From Gemmata palustris (lineage in GTDB: Bacteria; Planctomycetota; Planctomycetia; Gemmatales; Gemmataceae), in contig NZ_JAGKQQ010000001.1 in assembly GCF_017939745.1 (NCBI RefSeq), positions 806,001 to 870,000 on the forward strand: a stretch of DNA of 64,000 nt, in the 5' to 3' direction. Below are positions 17,337-23,597 of the stretch, piece by piece; position 1 is the stretch's first letter; every line of letters starts with the position of its first letter. A program made the translations under genes and the position numbers. A model generated the notes under the pieces. The model was not told the DNA's origin, searched no databases, and worked only from the letters and a program-made list of their open reading frames with translations.

Positions 17337-18143
17337 TCACACTGTGGCGAGTCGCGAGACGGCTTCGGCATGGATGGAACCGTTGGTCGCGATCAGTCCG
17401 CGTGTTTGTTTGAAGTTCTCGCCCTGGTAGACGATCGAATTGCCTCTCAGATCGGTGACCACACCGCCGGCCTCGGTCACGAGCAAGTGCCCCGCGCAGA
17501 TGTCCCAGTCGGCGAACGCCTCATAAGTGTTCGCGTACACGTCGGCTTCTCCGCGTGCGACGTGTGCGAGTTTCACTCCGCCGGAATACGTCTCGACCAC
17601 TCGAACCGGTGTGAGAGCTTGAACCGGCTTCGGCGACATGCCCGTTTTCGACCAGCTTTGAACCAAAACTAACTCGCTGAACCCGTGAGCCGACACCCGG
17701 CAGCGGGTCGGCTCCGCGTCGCCCGTGTGGGTCCAGCACCCGCCTCCAACGGATGCGAACGTCGTCCGGTTCTGGGCGGGTTCCGCCACGACTCCCACGA
17801 CCGGCTGTCCGTCGACAAGGAAACCGATCATCACCGAGAACTGCCCGACCTTCTTCGCGAACCCGCGGGTGCCGTCGATCGGGTCGACCACCCACGCCCG
17901 GCGCCCGATTTTCGGGAGCGAATCGAACGCGGGGGTGGATTCTTCCGCGCACAGTGCATCCGCCGGGAAGCGGTCGTGGAGGAACCCCAGAATCAGTTCT
18001 TGGGACGCCTTGTCCGCGTGGGTACTGATCGTCACCGGTGCGTCGGGGATCGCGGTGAACTGCTCGTACTCGCGCCGGAGTAAATCGCTCGCCCGTGCTG
18101 CCGCTTCGCGCGCCGCGGACAGTTCGTCCTGAAACGTCATCAT
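17337..18143 (-). CDS. Inositol monophosphatase-family phosphatase (CysQ/HisN-like)
   Basis: Metal-dependent phosphatase of about 268 residues. The metal-binding signature WVVDPIDGTRGF is intact, an upstream Glu pair is in LCAEES, and the second-site segment is EAFADWDICAGHLLVTEAGG. The family includes 3'(2'),5'-bisphosphate nucleotidase, inositol monophosphatase and histidinol-phosphatase. GTRGF and the overall layout fit the nucleotidase or histidinol-phosphatase branches best, but I cannot choose. Start is ATG 18143 or 18140. A palindromic repeat (18159-18226) lies just upstream, between this gene and the ABC gene. Confidence 0.85.
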   Translation of the reverse strand: MMTFQDELSAAREAAARASDLLRREYEQFTAIPDAPVTISTHADKASQELILGFLHDRFPADALCAEESTPAFDSLPKIGRRAWVVDPIDGTRGFAKKVGQFSVMIGFLVDGQPVVGVVAEPAQNRTTFASVGGGCWTHTGDAEPTRCRVSAHGFSELVLVQSWSKTGMSPKPVQALTPVRVVETYSGGVKLAHVARGEADVYANTYEAFADWDICAGHLLVTEAGGVVTDLRGNSIVYQGENFKQTRGLIATNGSIHAEAVSRLATV

Positions 18144-18158
18144 CACTCCGAAGTTGTA

Positions 18159-18226
18159 CCACCCGCTCGCGAACACGCGGTTCGCCAAGAAACTTCCGGG
18201 CGAACCGCGTGTTCGCGAGCGGGTGG
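18159..18226. repeat. Palindromic repeat, 28-bp arms (family P1)
   Basis: Perfect 28-bp inverted arms at 18159-18186 and 18199-18226 are separated by 12 nt. The outer core is CCACCCGCTCG and the inner core CGCGGTTCGCC. A related copy is at 40725-40794, with the same cores and a similar loop. It fills the gap between two minus-strand genes and could form a strong hairpin in RNA. Confidence 0.85.
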
Positions 18227-18232
18227 ACTTCC

Positions 18233-20458
18233 TTACGAATCGGTCTTCAGTGCGGGGTGCTCGGTCGCCGTCGCGTCGGCGAGAATTTGCAGCCGGCGGT
18301 AACTGTCGTTGGATTTCCAGAGTTCGTCGTGCGCGCCGTCCGCTTCGACCTGGCCGTTCTTCAAGAGGAACACGCGGTCCACGTTGCGGAGCGTCGAGAG
18401 CCGCTGCGCGAGGAAGATGACCGTGCGGCCCCCGGACACGCGCGCGAGCGTGTCGTCGAACAGCGCGAGCGTGTCCTCGTCCACGGGGCCGGTCGGCTCC
18501 TCGATGATGAGAATCGACGGGTCGCGGAGCAGGGCACGCGCCAGTGCGATCCGGAACCGCTCGCCCGGGGTGAGCGAGTGCCCGCCGTTCCCGACGAGCG
18601 TTTCGTAGCCGAACGGCAACTTCTCGATGAACTGGTGGGCGTGGGCGAGTTTTGCGGCCTCAATGATTTGCGGGAGGTTGTGCGACGGGTCGCCGACGCC
18701 GATGTTGTTCGCCGCGGTGTCGGTGAACGTGAGGTCGTCCTGCATCACGAGGGCGACCTGGGTGCGGAGCGATTCGTGCGTCACCCAGCGAATGTTCTTG
18801 TCCTCGATTCGGACCTCGCCGGACGTCGGATCGAGGAACCGCGGGATCATGGACACGAGCGCGTGCTTTTCTGCGGCGTTCTGCCCCACAATGGCGATGC
18901 TCGCGCCGGCGGGCACCGCGAACGTCACGTCCTCCAGAATCCGCCGCCCGGTCGCCGGGTCGTTGAGCGTGACGTGCCGGAACTCCATCCGGGTCGTCAG
19001 CCCCGGTAGGAACTCCGCGTCCGCGGCCTCGGCCGCTTCGCCGCGCCGTTCGAGGAACTCGAGGATCGCGTCCGCGGCCTCGTGCCCGCGCCGGACCTTC
19101 AGTGCGTGATCGAACAGCCTAGCGATCGGTACGGCGAGCGACACGAGCGCAACGGCCATAACCGCGAGCCCCGCGACCGAGAACCCCCCCGCGAGTACCC
19201 CGCGGGCGGCAAGATAAAGTAGCGCGACCCCGGTAACGAGCACGACCGAGCCGAGCAACGGGGCGGCCATTGAGGTGCCCCGCAGCCGGCGCCAGTTCGC
19301 GCGGCCCGATTCCGTCAACTGCCGCTCGACCCGCGCCTGGTTGAACCGCTCCATCTGGAAGCACTTCACCAGTCGGAACAGCGCCATGCTTTCACTTAAA
19401 AGCGCGAGCGTGGCCGCTGCCTGGCGCTCGCCGATCCGCCCCTCGCGCCGGAAGTGTGCCGCCACCTGTCCCCCGACCAACCACACCAGTGCGGCGAGTG
19501 CCAGGAAACTGAGCGCCAACCAGAAGTTCACCAGTACGATCAACCCGACCAAGAAGACCACGAGCAACCGGTACCGGACCGCGGACGTGAACCGCGCCTG
19601 GATCGCGTCGCCGATCTCCTCGACGCGCCGGGTCAGCAGGTCCGCGACCTCGGCCGTGCCCAGGGTCTGCATCGTGAGCGACCCGAGCCGGTACGTATGG
19701 AAGTAGACGGCCCGCCGGAGCCGGGTGACGGCGTCGAGCGTAACCGCGGCCGAAAGGTACGCCAGCGCGTTCACGAGTACCCCGCGCACCGCGGCGAGGC
19801 CGAACGCCAGGACGAACAGCCCTGTCAGATAGGGGACGTTGGCCGAACCCTTCGGCCCCGGCGCCCAGGTCCATTTGTTCCACGACGCGAGCCAGCCGAG
19901 GACCGGACCGGTCCACCGGTTGCGTTCGCGCACAACGAGACTCAGAATTCCGAACTGCGGGCGCGCCTCCGGGTCGACGTTCTCGGACTTGTCCGTGCGT
20001 TCCCAGCCCGGGGGCGGCAAGTAGTTATCGGCCGCGGCTTGGTTCACGCGGTCGCGGAGCGCGAGGTACACGCCCGACTGCCAGCGCGCTTCCCACTCGT
20101 CTGCAAAGAGGTGCTCCTCGCCCTGCGCCTTCGCGAGCGGTTTCAGGTCTTCGTCCGTGCGGGCTTCGAGCCGCTTGGCGCGGAGCACCGGCCACCCCAG
20201 GCGCGCGACCGCCTCGGCTCGGTCCGCGTCCGAGCGCCCGGCCCATTCGTCGGCGAACTCGCGCTTCCGCGTGGCCGAGAGTTGCGCGTAGGTCGGGATT
20301 TCGCCGCGCCAGACGAGAAGATCGACGAAGAGGTACAGGAGCAGTAGGAGCAGCGCGTAGGTAACGGCCGCCCCAATGGAACTGACGAGTGCCGCCCAGC
20401 GAGCGCTGGGCGATTTGACGAAGCTTTTGTGGATTTGCGCGAGTGCAGTGCTGCCCAC
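18233..20458 (-). CDS. ABC exporter-like protein with degenerate ATPase motifs
   Basis: A 741-residue half-transporter with membrane segments from about residue 28 to 440 and a C-terminal nucleotide-binding domain. The N-terminal domain has a long soluble insert between the first and second helices (about residues 57-200). The nucleotide domain is recognisable but altered. Walker A reads GQNAAEKH instead of GxxGxGKS/T. The signature reads LTPGE, Walker B ends LIIEE, and the switch His is replaced in FLAQRL. The Q-loop (VMQDD) and the D-loop area remain. It may bind ATP poorly or act as a non-hydrolysing partner. No second half-transporter is adjacent. Confidence 0.85.
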   Translation of the reverse strand: MGSTALAQIHKSFVKSPSARWAALVSSIGAAVTYALLLLLLYLFVDLLVWRGEIPTYAQLSATRKREFADEWAGRSDADRAEAVARLGWPVLRAKRLEARTDEDLKPLAKAQGEEHLFADEWEARWQSGVYLALRDRVNQAAADNYLPPPGWERTDKSENVDPEARPQFGILSLVVRERNRWTGPVLGWLASWNKWTWAPGPKGSANVPYLTGLFVLAFGLAAVRGVLVNALAYLSAAVTLDAVTRLRRAVYFHTYRLGSLTMQTLGTAEVADLLTRRVEEIGDAIQARFTSAVRYRLLVVFLVGLIVLVNFWLALSFLALAALVWLVGGQVAAHFRREGRIGERQAAATLALLSESMALFRLVKCFQMERFNQARVERQLTESGRANWRRLRGTSMAAPLLGSVVLVTGVALLYLAARGVLAGGFSVAGLAVMAVALVSLAVPIARLFDHALKVRRGHEAADAILEFLERRGEAAEAADAEFLPGLTTRMEFRHVTLNDPATGRRILEDVTFAVPAGASIAIVGQNAAEKHALVSMIPRFLDPTSGEVRIEDKNIRWVTHESLRTQVALVMQDDLTFTDTAANNIGVGDPSHNLPQIIEAAKLAHAHQFIEKLPFGYETLVGNGGHSLTPGERFRIALARALLRDPSILIIEEPTGPVDEDTLALFDDTLARVSGGRTVIFLAQRLSTLRNVDRVFLLKNGQVEADGAHDELWKSNDSYRRLQILADATATEHPALKTDS

Positions 20459-20622: not shown

Positions 20623-21957
20623 TTACGCCAAGTCCCGGTCTTCAAACAGGAGTAGCCCGACGAGGAGCGCGATGACGGTGTAAATCAGCGAGTAACCGGT
20701 CACGGTCAGCACATAAGTGCCGAACTGCCACAGGTCGAGTTCGGTTTCGCGGATGATGGCGCGGCTCATGTTGAACGACTCGAGCGACGGGAGCAGCGCG
20801 TCGAACAGCCGCCCGAGGAAGCCGACGAGTCTGACGCCCGTGCCCCCGCCCTGTGTTTGTGCGCGCTGGGTCACCTGCACCACGACGGGCGCGAGGTGGC
20901 CCAAGAAAAACACGAGCAGGCACAGAACGAGGTTCACGATGAACGCCAGTCGCGTCGCCAGGGCCGACGCGACCGCGACCAAGATCATGACCTGCCCGAA
21001 ACCGAGCATGACGCCGAACGTGTGCGCAACAGCGTCGGAGAACCACAACCCGGCACCAGCGGCGACGGCTTTCCCTTGCACACTCGGCACGACCCGCTTG
21101 AACGGCGGGACCACGGTCTTCTGCGCCTGATAGGTCATCGGGTCGACGATCTTTTCCGTGGGCGTGGCGAGCGGGTCCGTCGGGTCCGCGGCGTTGTTGA
21201 TCGAATCGTACTCGCGGTTCGCCCGCAGCGCGTAGGTCAGCGTCCAGTTGAGGAGCATCGACATGACCAGACACGCCATCACGATGCCGAGGAACTTGCC
21301 GATGAGGAACTGGCGCCGGTTCACCGGCTTGCTCATCAGCGTGACCGCCGTGCGCCCCTCGATTTCCTCGCTGATCGACATGCTCGCGGCCAGCACCCCG
21401 AACAGGGTCGCGGCCAGCATCACCATGTCGAACCCGATCTGCTTCATGAACTTGTAGTCGTCGCCGAACGTGAAGTACGGGATCGCGACCGAGATCCAGA
21501 TGGCGACCGTGGCGCCGCCGGTAATGAGCCAGAACATGGGCTGCCGACAGCTCTCGCGGAACGCGGCGAACGCGACCACCCCGCCCTTCGGCCACACCAG
21601 CATCACGACTTGCGGCAGGAGCAGGAACAGGTCCACGATGAGTTGCAGGTGGAGCAGGCCGCCGTAAATGTAGCGCCCGTTCACCGAGAGGTTCGAGGCG
21701 TCGCCCTTGTAAACCAGGTACGCGCCCGCCGCGACCCCGGCCACGAGTAGCCCCAGGATCGCGTAGACGAGCGACGCGGGACTGGACGCGGCGGACTTGA
21801 AGCCCTTCGGGTCGATGGCCCAGAGCCACGGAAGGGCGGCGACGAACTGTAAGGTGGCGAGTACCACGCCGGCCAACAGCACGGTCGGATCGTTGGTCAA
21901 CGTCGAAAACATGCGCGGGGTCCGGGAGTCGGTGCGAATCGAGACGTTACCCGCCAT
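20623..21957 (-). CDS. ABC-2 type transporter permease
   Basis: Membrane protein of 444 residues with about seven helices, a large loop and the typical SISEEIEGRTAVTLMSKPVN segment seen in ABC permeases of the NatB/NosY/GldF kind. It would form the membrane part of an ABC system; no cognate ATPase gene is adjacent. ATG 21957 and ATG 21912 are both possible; the hydrophobic region starts soon after the latter. It lies upstream of the degenerate ABC exporter in the same direction but with a gap of about 165 nt. Substrate unknown. Confidence 0.82.
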   Translation of the reverse strand: MAGNVSIRTDSRTPRMFSTLTNDPTVLLAGVVLATLQFVAALPWLWAIDPKGFKSAASSPASLVYAILGLLVAGVAAGAYLVYKGDASNLSVNGRYIYGGLLHLQLIVDLFLLLPQVVMLVWPKGGVVAFAAFRESCRQPMFWLITGGATVAIWISVAIPYFTFGDDYKFMKQIGFDMVMLAATLFGVLAASMSISEEIEGRTAVTLMSKPVNRRQFLIGKFLGIVMACLVMSMLLNWTLTYALRANREYDSINNAADPTDPLATPTEKIVDPMTYQAQKTVVPPFKRVVPSVQGKAVAAGAGLWFSDAVAHTFGVMLGFGQVMILVAVASALATRLAFIVNLVLCLLVFFLGHLAPVVVQVTQRAQTQGGGTGVRLVGFLGRLFDALLPSLESFNMSRAIIRETELDLWQFGTYVLTVTGYSLIYTVIALLVGLLLFEDRDLA

Positions 21958-22103: not shown

Positions 22104-23597
22104 CTAAACCCACAGTTGCAGCACGCGCATCACGGTTTCCTGCCACACGTCGAACGGGTCTTCGCCGTCGAGGGCCGCGACCGCGCCGTCGCCCGCACCG
22201 ATCTCCGGGCGCGGACCACCCACGATCAGTTCCGTGACCACCACGTTGTCCATCTCCATATCAAACGGCTCGGTCGCGGACGCGAGGCAGTGAACCTGGG
22301 AGTTCCGTGACAACCGGTTGAGGTAGGTCATCACCGCTTCCCGGCTCTCGGTGGCCCGCTCCGCGGCCTCTTGTTCCTGAGTGCTCTTGCCCGATGCGGT
22401 CCGGTCGCCGGTCGCCACCAACCCGTCGCCGCGCTCGATCGGCTCGCGGAGCAGCAGACGCAAGAGTGCGGCCTCTTCTGCGAGCGGAGCTTTTCCGCCG
22501 TCCTGTACGAACAGCACCTCGAACCGGATCGCGTCGGTACTCAGCCAGTCGGTCAACTTGCGAACGAGCGCGAGAATTGTGGACTGGAGCAGCACGATGC
22601 GCTGGTAGGGCAACTCGCCGTCCTTGAACCGCGCCGCGATCAGGTCCGGGAAGATGACGAACACGAACGCCCGCCGGCGCCGGAGGAACTGGTTCTCGTC
22701 GCGCGAGTAGTAGAACAGTTCGTCGCGCACGAACTTCATGTCGAAGAGGTCCGGGCTCTCGTCCTCCATGTACGCGAGCTGCGAGTGCAACAAACTCTCG
22801 ATCGAGCCCTTCGTGGAGATCGACGTGTACCCGCCGACCGGGTACTGGTCCTCGTCGAGCACGCGCGTGGGGACTTCCTTGCGCCCGACGAGCGGCTTCA
22901 CCGGGCGCGCGGGGAGCCGGGACTCGATCCGCGCCGTGGTTTGCAGGATTTGCCGGTGCGCAACGTACTGGCCCATGTCGGCGAGCGCGGTTCCCTGTTC
23001 GAGCGCGATCACGTCTTCGGGCGCGAGAACCTCCGCGATCCGGCGCCCGGCGGACACCAGAGCCTCGTACATCTGCACGAGCAGCGGGGACGGGCCATCT
23101 CGCACGAGCCCGTCGTAGCCGGTTTGAATCACCTCGTCGGGGTTGGTCGTTTGCAGCGCGCGGATCACCGCGGGCGGGAGTAGCACGCCCGAGATCCCCG
23201 CGCGCTCGCAAATTTGGTTCACGATGTACGCCAACCCGCGCACGCGGTCCTTTTCCTTGTACTTACGCAGCGCGTCCCCGGCGCGCTCGAAGGTCCAGTC
23301 GGCGTAGAGTTTGCCGAGGACGTGGTCCTCGTAACTGCGCCCGAGCGCGGGGGGCCAACCCGGAACCGGCTGCGCTTCGCGCACGCGCTGTTCGGCATCG
23401 ACTCCCAGAGCCACGTTACCCACGTCCGCGACGAACCCGATGGGCGGGAGCGGGTGCCCCCCGGACGCGATTTCCATCGCCCATTCGAGGGCCGGTTTGA
23501 CGGTTTTCGCGGTGGGTTTGAGGGCGCGCTGGAGCAGCAACCCGTCGAGTATGTATCGGCGGGCCGCGTCGAGGTCGCGCAGTTCGATCGGGTCCAT
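22104..23597 (-). CDS. Hypothetical protein, 497 residues
   Basis: I do not recognise this protein. It is soluble, with no signal peptide or membrane segment. The middle region alternates charged helices with a hydrophobic core (AFVFVIFPDLIAARF, then IVLLQSTILALVRKLTDWL) that resembles an alpha/beta fold. A segment near residue 400 is rich in Glu and Ala (TQEQEAAERATESREAVM). The C-terminus ends in a conserved-looking DVWQETVMRVLQLWV. Codon use matches the host genes, and a clear ATG is present, so it is likely expressed. It is upstream of the ABC permease on the same strand. Confidence 0.6.
   Translation of the reverse strand: MDPIELRDLDAARRYILDGLLLQRALKPTAKTVKPALEWAMEIASGGHPLPPIGFVADVGNVALGVDAEQRVREAQPVPGWPPALGRSYEDHVLGKLYADWTFERAGDALRKYKEKDRVRGLAYIVNQICERAGISGVLLPPAVIRALQTTNPDEVIQTGYDGLVRDGPSPLLVQMYEALVSAGRRIAEVLAPEDVIALEQGTALADMGQYVAHRQILQTTARIESRLPARPVKPLVGRKEVPTRVLDEDQYPVGGYTSISTKGSIESLLHSQLAYMEDESPDLFDMKFVRDELFYYSRDENQFLRRRRAFVFVIFPDLIAARFKDGELPYQRIVLLQSTILALVRKLTDWLSTDAIRFEVLFVQDGGKAPLAEEAALLRLLLREPIERGDGLVATGDRTASGKSTQEQEAAERATESREAVMTYLNRLSRNSQVHCLASATEPFDMEMDNVVVTELIVGGPRPEIGAGDGAVAALDGEDPFDVWQETVMRVLQLWV

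Follow-up and report, generated by a model that had tools for sequence, protein, structure and literature searches.

An ABC exporter-like protein of Gemmata palustris with erased ATPase motifs, member of a family usually encoded beside an ABC-2 permease

The conservation of NBDs in ABC transporters is usually ascribed to ATP chemistry. A gene of Gemmata palustris that encodes an apparently complete exporter, with its ATPase motifs altered together, raises the question of whether such a protein is a decaying copy or belongs to a family that has kept its NBD for another role, and which partner it may then work with. The window analysed is a stretch of 64,000 nucleotides, and its features are listed in Table 1, numbered from the first base of the window. 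The protein is referred to below as the pseudo-exporter.

Table 1 Features of the pseudo-exporter and its neighbours in the window.
Feature	Coordinates	Strand	Details and basis
Pseudo-exporter ORF, putatively ATPase-dead type IV ABC exporter	18233..20458	(-)	741 aa, GTG start; PF00664 + PF00005; model
Degenerate Walker A GQNAAEKH, residues 525-532	18863..18886	(-)	Sequence
Degenerate signature LTPGE, residues 629-633	18560..18574	(-)	Sequence
Walker B EEP (within LIIEEP), residues 653-655	18494..18502	(-)	Sequence
Switch-His position, Gln685	18404..18406	(-)	Sequence
Long TM1-TM2 loop, residues about 51-205	19844..20308	(-)	Model helices 17-50 and 207-258
NosY-like ABC-2 (type V) permease, upstream	20623..21957	(-)	444 aa; PF12679 + PF12730; model pLDDT 88
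Inositol-monophosphatase-superfamily phosphatase, downstream	17337..18188	(-)	PF00459; HisN/CysQ-like, below curated NCBIfam cut-offs

Fold and motifs of the window protein

Pfam still recognises the ABC_membrane and ABC_tran domains in the protein, and its top NCBIfam match is MsbA, at 275 bits, far below the cut-off of 602. The structural model has a pLDDT of 84 and a pTM of 0.66, and its NBD fold is complete. The model aligns to TmrAB, MsbA and TM287/288 with VIA-align Z scores of about 30, and Foldseek returned MsbA with an E-value of 1e-29. By Pfam, the model and the fold searches, the protein has the fold of a type IV exporter, comprising a six-helix membrane domain, long intracellular loops and a fused NBD. 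The TM1-TM2 loop is presumed to be extracytoplasmic from the topology of the family. Residues 356-381, a region conserved among the homologues, are taken here as the second coupling loop.

Both a Walker A of the form GxxGxGK[ST] and an LSGGQ-type signature, the marks of a working ATPase, are absent. The original prediction had read these motifs as GQNAAEKH and LTPGE, and both strings were found exactly, at residues 525-532 and 629-633, respectively. The Lys position of Walker A is still occupied by Lys (K531). The prediction also held that a second Glu replaces the Walker B Asp and that the switch His is replaced. Both claims were borne out in the window copy, where E653 of LIIEEP stands at the Asp position, the catalytic position remains Glu (E654) and the switch position is Gln. 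The A-loop Tyr is lost as well (Asp500), which makes this the fifth altered motif. An oddity specific to the window, or a sequencing artefact, was ruled out by the other ABC exporters of the same genome, which are intact.

Homologues, ancestry and selection

Within the taxonomic family of G. palustris, a homologue at E <= 1e-100 was found in 62 of 95 genomes, or 52 of the 66 of good quality, and some of the remaining genomes carry more diverged copies. A profile built from 40 members was used to find homologues in other families of the class; members confirmed by their motif tables occur in nine further families (f2, f3, f4, f5, f6, f7, f14, f17 and f18), of which we guess f3 and f4 to be Isosphaeraceae and Pirellulaceae. 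Outside the class, 43 genomes gave matches reaching E <= 1e-95; the best match in each retains a full Walker A, and 42 of these 43 best matches carry an LSGG-type signature, that of L332 being off-pattern. A strongly diverged member among the weaker matches there is conceivable. A plasmid search matched 2666 of 72,556 records, all below 60% identity and none spanning 80% of the query. Of the 27 loci from a scan of genome contigs, ten (L050-L059) are pseudo-exporter family members that mostly repeat the genome set, and the remainder are weaker ABC matches. Literature searches, with thin coverage of subscription journals, turned up no account of this family.

Motifs were counted in 93 homologue rows, each longer than 550 residues, and in 37 intact exporters. 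The two sets were split by Walker A pattern, so that a full Walker A in 37/37 intact exporters and 0/93 homologues is true by construction, whereas the other counts are not. The 93 exclude contig duplicates (L050-L058), fragments (L059, L091, L106, L108 and L109) and the far-diverged copies L281, L283, L285, L286, L288 and L300; L101 and L105 are truncated or shifted near the C-terminus and give some odd or gap cells in the motif table. Among the five standard Walker A residues, 32 homologues keep none, 16 keep one, 44 keep two and a single one keeps three. The Lys survives in 47/93, and the P-loop length is preserved, with gaps in only 1/93 rows. The LSGG[QE] signature is present in 37/37 intact exporters and in none of the 93 homologues. 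The Walker B Asp, found in all 37 intact exporters, is replaced by Glu (E653) in 88/93 homologues. The catalytic Glu (E654) is present in 91/93 homologues and 36/37 intact exporters, and the adjoining P655 is near-fixed (89/93), leaving "EEP" nearly invariant. The A-loop Tyr of 36/37 intact exporters is mostly E or D in the homologues (66/93), and the Q-loop Gln is retained in 50/93 homologues versus 37/37 intact exporters. Residues D668, D669 and R673, which are not the usual ones at these positions in intact exporters, are conserved at 90-93% in the homologues. The switch position, His in 37/37 intact exporters, is the least consistent of these changes, with H in 41 homologues, Q in 16, R in 16, S in 9 and N in 6. 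Conservation of the predicted substitutions across homologues therefore stands for Walker A, the signature and the Walker B Asp to Glu change, and fails for the switch His; the loss of the A-loop Tyr is conserved across the family as well. The return of standard motifs in homologues, named beforehand as the outcome contrary to the prediction, was not seen in the aligned orthologous homologues.

The degenerate set occupies one side of a single branch with an SH-aLRT of 100 in a 130-row tree computed from residue 200 onward, and the same branch, also with an SH-aLRT of 100, is recovered from the membrane domain alone (88 rows). Both trees are products of a quick search without bootstrap, have an unknown root and contain very long branches (L183, L185 and L198). 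Within the degenerate clade the branching mainly tracks families, and the pseudo-exporter probably belongs to an ancient family of pseudo-ABC exporters passed on by vertical descent. Because the homologues devoid of Walker A form one clade that lacks LSGG[QE] throughout the 93 rows, the altered motifs exceed what chance would give, and the 741-residue protein, judged by its sequence, is an exporter fold with its ATPase motifs erased.

Selection on the gene was estimated against three close relatives. The dN/dS of the whole gene is 0.11, 0.13 and 0.16, and that of the NBD 0.10, 0.10 and 0.14; a comparison of two of these relatives with each other gave 0.07 for the gene and 0.06 for the NBD. The NBD part of the gene has a lower dS than the part for the membrane domain, at 0.29/0.71, 0.30/0.56 and 0.65/0.83 versus L021, L022 and L024. 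The NBD identity was also compared between the degenerate family and intact exporters at matched membrane-domain identity. The respective values are 0.54 and 0.53 at 30-40% membrane-domain identity, 0.57 and 0.57 at 40-50%, 0.68 and 0.64 at 50-60%, and 0.76 and 0.67 at 60-90%. Below 30% the degenerate NBD is less conserved than the intact one, with 0.48 versus 0.51 at 25-30%, 0.43 versus 0.48 at 20-25% and 0.41 versus 0.47 at 15-20%. Since above 30% the degenerate NBD is no less conserved than the intact one, the domain over this range appears to be constrained as in working exporters without possessing the ATPase motifs.

In some lineages the NBD is much more eroded. Extremely diverged versions adjoin an ABC-2 gene at L281:2663-4600 and L283:5158-6978, and in both the signature and switch regions are also disintegrating, together with Walker B in L281. 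Such copies speak for a reading of the window gene as a decaying exporter, an explanation that we consider very improbable given dN/dS values of 0.07-0.16, retention across families, the new near-fixed residues and a conserved linkage to a neighbouring gene. Decay of a single copy is ruled out by the homologue motifs and the selection tests. The motifs, the single clade and the purifying selection on the NBD support the original prediction of a conserved non-hydrolysing ATPase or a distinct mechanism, and the pseudo-exporter is accordingly inferred to be non-hydrolysing. Weak phosphate binding is conceivable, as the Walker A Lys survives in about half of the homologues.

The upstream permease and the possible role of the pseudo-exporter

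The product of the gene just upstream has a type V fold, and its model aligns to NosY with a VIA-align Z score of 18.2 and an rmsd of 4.3 Å over 252 residues. The Foldseek E-value is only 3.8e-3, with a probability of 1.00, and the top seven matches are all NosY chains. The hmmsearch match to NosY covers 53 profile positions with an E-value of 5e-4. The permease thus shares the type V (ABC-2) fold with NosY of the NosDFY system and differs from it in having extra N-terminal helices in the window protein and, in the neighbourhoods drawn, no adjacent gene for a NosF-like ATPase.

In 65 of the 89 assessable loci, spread over ten families, a permease homologue on the same strand is the immediate upstream neighbour of the pseudo-exporter (f1 39/57, f2 2/7, f3 6/6, f4 11/12, f5 1/1, f6 1/1, f7 1/1, f14 2/2, f17 1/1 and f18 1/1). 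The count omits L050-L059 and L091; a locus was assessable if it had at least 1000 bases upstream or if the permease was found, and adjacency was defined as a gap of -400 to 700 bases between stop-to-stop frames. Strongly diverged pseudo-exporters also keep their place by the permease (L198, L281, L283, L285, L286, L288 and L300). The permease is not adjacent in 24/89 loci. A search of ten genomes in which the pseudo-exporter lacks this linkage, or in which its upstream gene is cut off, found the permease in each. It was found in 33 of 34 genomes of the class, chosen to include those without a pseudo-exporter or with an unlinked one. A permease without a neighbouring pseudo-exporter occurs, for example, in families f6, f8, f9, f10, f11, f13, f19 and f20 and in G066 and G067 of the G. 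palustris family, and those of these genomes that were aligned hold no degenerate match at E <= 1e-60 elsewhere. The permease therefore does not need a pseudo-exporter everywhere, and the pseudo-exporter is an accessory in many but not all lineages. Weaker homologues of the permease extend beyond the class, and in the seven such loci fetched a pseudo-exporter was found in none and a metallophosphoesterase nearby in five. In loci drawn from rough longest-ORF calling no NBD gene lies directly beside the permease, so its ATPase comes from elsewhere or none is needed. A distance correlation over 32 loci was dropped as backing for the link, as the partial r of 0.42 for the permease does not single it out over the neighbouring phosphatase (0.53).

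The reading that we favour, by a little over even chances, is that the pseudo-exporter is a non-hydrolysing partner of the upstream ABC-2 permease. It would retain the body of a type IV exporter, with the membrane domain, coupling loops and folded NBD, and would have given up ATP binding and hydrolysis at that NBD. The NBD pair may form a permanently assembled structural or regulatory module, and the exporter body with its long, presumably extracytoplasmic loop may scaffold or gate the NosY-like permease with which it would work. Any ATP would be hydrolysed by a separately encoded NBD docking on the permease. The substrate is probably a lipid or an envelope component, a guess from the fold alone. 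A bolder possibility, which we put forward only tentatively, is that this exporter family, spread through one bacterial class, has abandoned ATP altogether and now supplies the non-catalytic half of a machine made of two transporters, in which a type IV body is coupled to a type V (ABC-2) permease. We know of no described counterpart of such a hybrid between a type IV body and a type V permease, and if it exists it would represent a surviving stage between exporters driven by ATP and transporters devoid of an NBD. The NBD of the pseudo-exporter is about as conserved as that of working exporters although its ATP chemistry is erased, and the family would therefore separate the mechanical from the catalytic roles of the domain. 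Through it one could study how exporters come to dispense with ATP, and whether ABC folds of types IV and V are able to combine in a single machine.

Altered NBD motifs under selection are also found in TM287/288, TmrAB, TAP and MsRv1273c/72c. In heterodimeric exporters with a degenerate site, as described in PMC7756269, one site stays catalytic and the other is degenerate. The pseudo-exporter could likewise be the degenerate half of a heterodimer, paired with an intact MsbA-like paralogue from another locus (the L002 type in G. palustris). The same genome does contain an intact exporter whose TM1-TM2 stretch is long, at least two matches occur in 89 of 102 genomes of the order (in some cases fragments of a single split gene), and those weaker matches in the order that were aligned (L177-L181) are intact. 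We nonetheless regard this arrangement as unlikely. The pseudo-exporter differs from the known cases in that one chain loses Walker A and the signature together, which, with the site geometry described in PMC7756269, would compromise both composite sites, so that an explanation by one degenerate and one working site fits badly. No intact half-transporter adjoins the pseudo-exporter and permease pair in 31 neighbourhoods under rough longest-ORF calling, and an ABC-type NBD gene occurs only in two of them (L157 and L159), a few genes off. The intact paralogue is also present where no pseudo-exporter was found, for example in G066, G067, G105, G114 and G140. A different doubt concerns the site itself, since nucleotide might still be bound or slowly hydrolysed at an unorthodox site formed around the EE pair. 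The retention of E654 and, in half of the homologues, of K531 would suit such a site, which is improbable with the Walker A glycines, A-loop Tyr and signature lost together, about a third of the homologues retaining not one of the five Walker A residues and no homologue more than three. Compared with MsbA and other homodimeric type IV exporters, the pseudo-exporter shares the membrane domain, NBD fold and length, and differs in lacking the A-loop Tyr, a standard Walker A and signature, and the Mg-binding Asp, and in being usually encoded beside an ABC-2 permease gene.

The membrane domain might instead be driven by a proton gradient as in SbmA/BacA, with the NBD serving only to hold the dimer. 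SbmA is a proton-driven transporter whose ancestor is believed to have been an ABC exporter, the NBD having been lost (PMC13316013), and transport by MsbA is reported to be proton-coupled (PMC4979069). Acidic residues that reach at least 70% among the homologues and exceed the level of intact exporters number only two within the predicted TM helices, D46 and D242 (82% and 72% versus 35% and 3%, respectively). SbmA/BacA and the pseudo-exporter have in common an ABC-exporter membrane domain without a working ATPase. However, these SLiPTs have no NBD and no coupling helices (PMC13316013), whereas the pseudo-exporter keeps a constrained NBD and a conserved 356-381 region. The SLiPTs also carry a glutamate ladder (PMC13316013), and no ladder of conserved glutamates was evident in the predicted membrane helices of the pseudo-exporter family. 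A secondary transporter is thus a doubtful alternative to a non-hydrolysing partner of the permease.

Other neighbouring genes

A gene of the inositol-phosphatase family, like that downstream in the window, lies near the pseudo-exporter in 48 of 70 f1/f2 loci (Gemmatales). In f4 loci a RelA/SpoT-like HD protein is encoded downstream in 5 of 12 cases. These phosphohydrolase neighbours, like the metallophosphoesterase near the permease outside the class, differ by group. Upstream of the ABC-2 gene, some Gemmatales encode an NAD kinase (12 of 52 f1/f2 loci with the permease) and a DXP synthase (7 loci). Such neighbours were noted at L281, L283, L285, L087, L104 and other loci, and may point to a phosphate or nucleotide theme. 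In the window, a PF19997/PF19996 gene (vWA domain of 'FtsH ternary systems') at 22104-23597 (-) lies upstream of the permease, as it likewise does in L050-L053, L055, L057 and L077.
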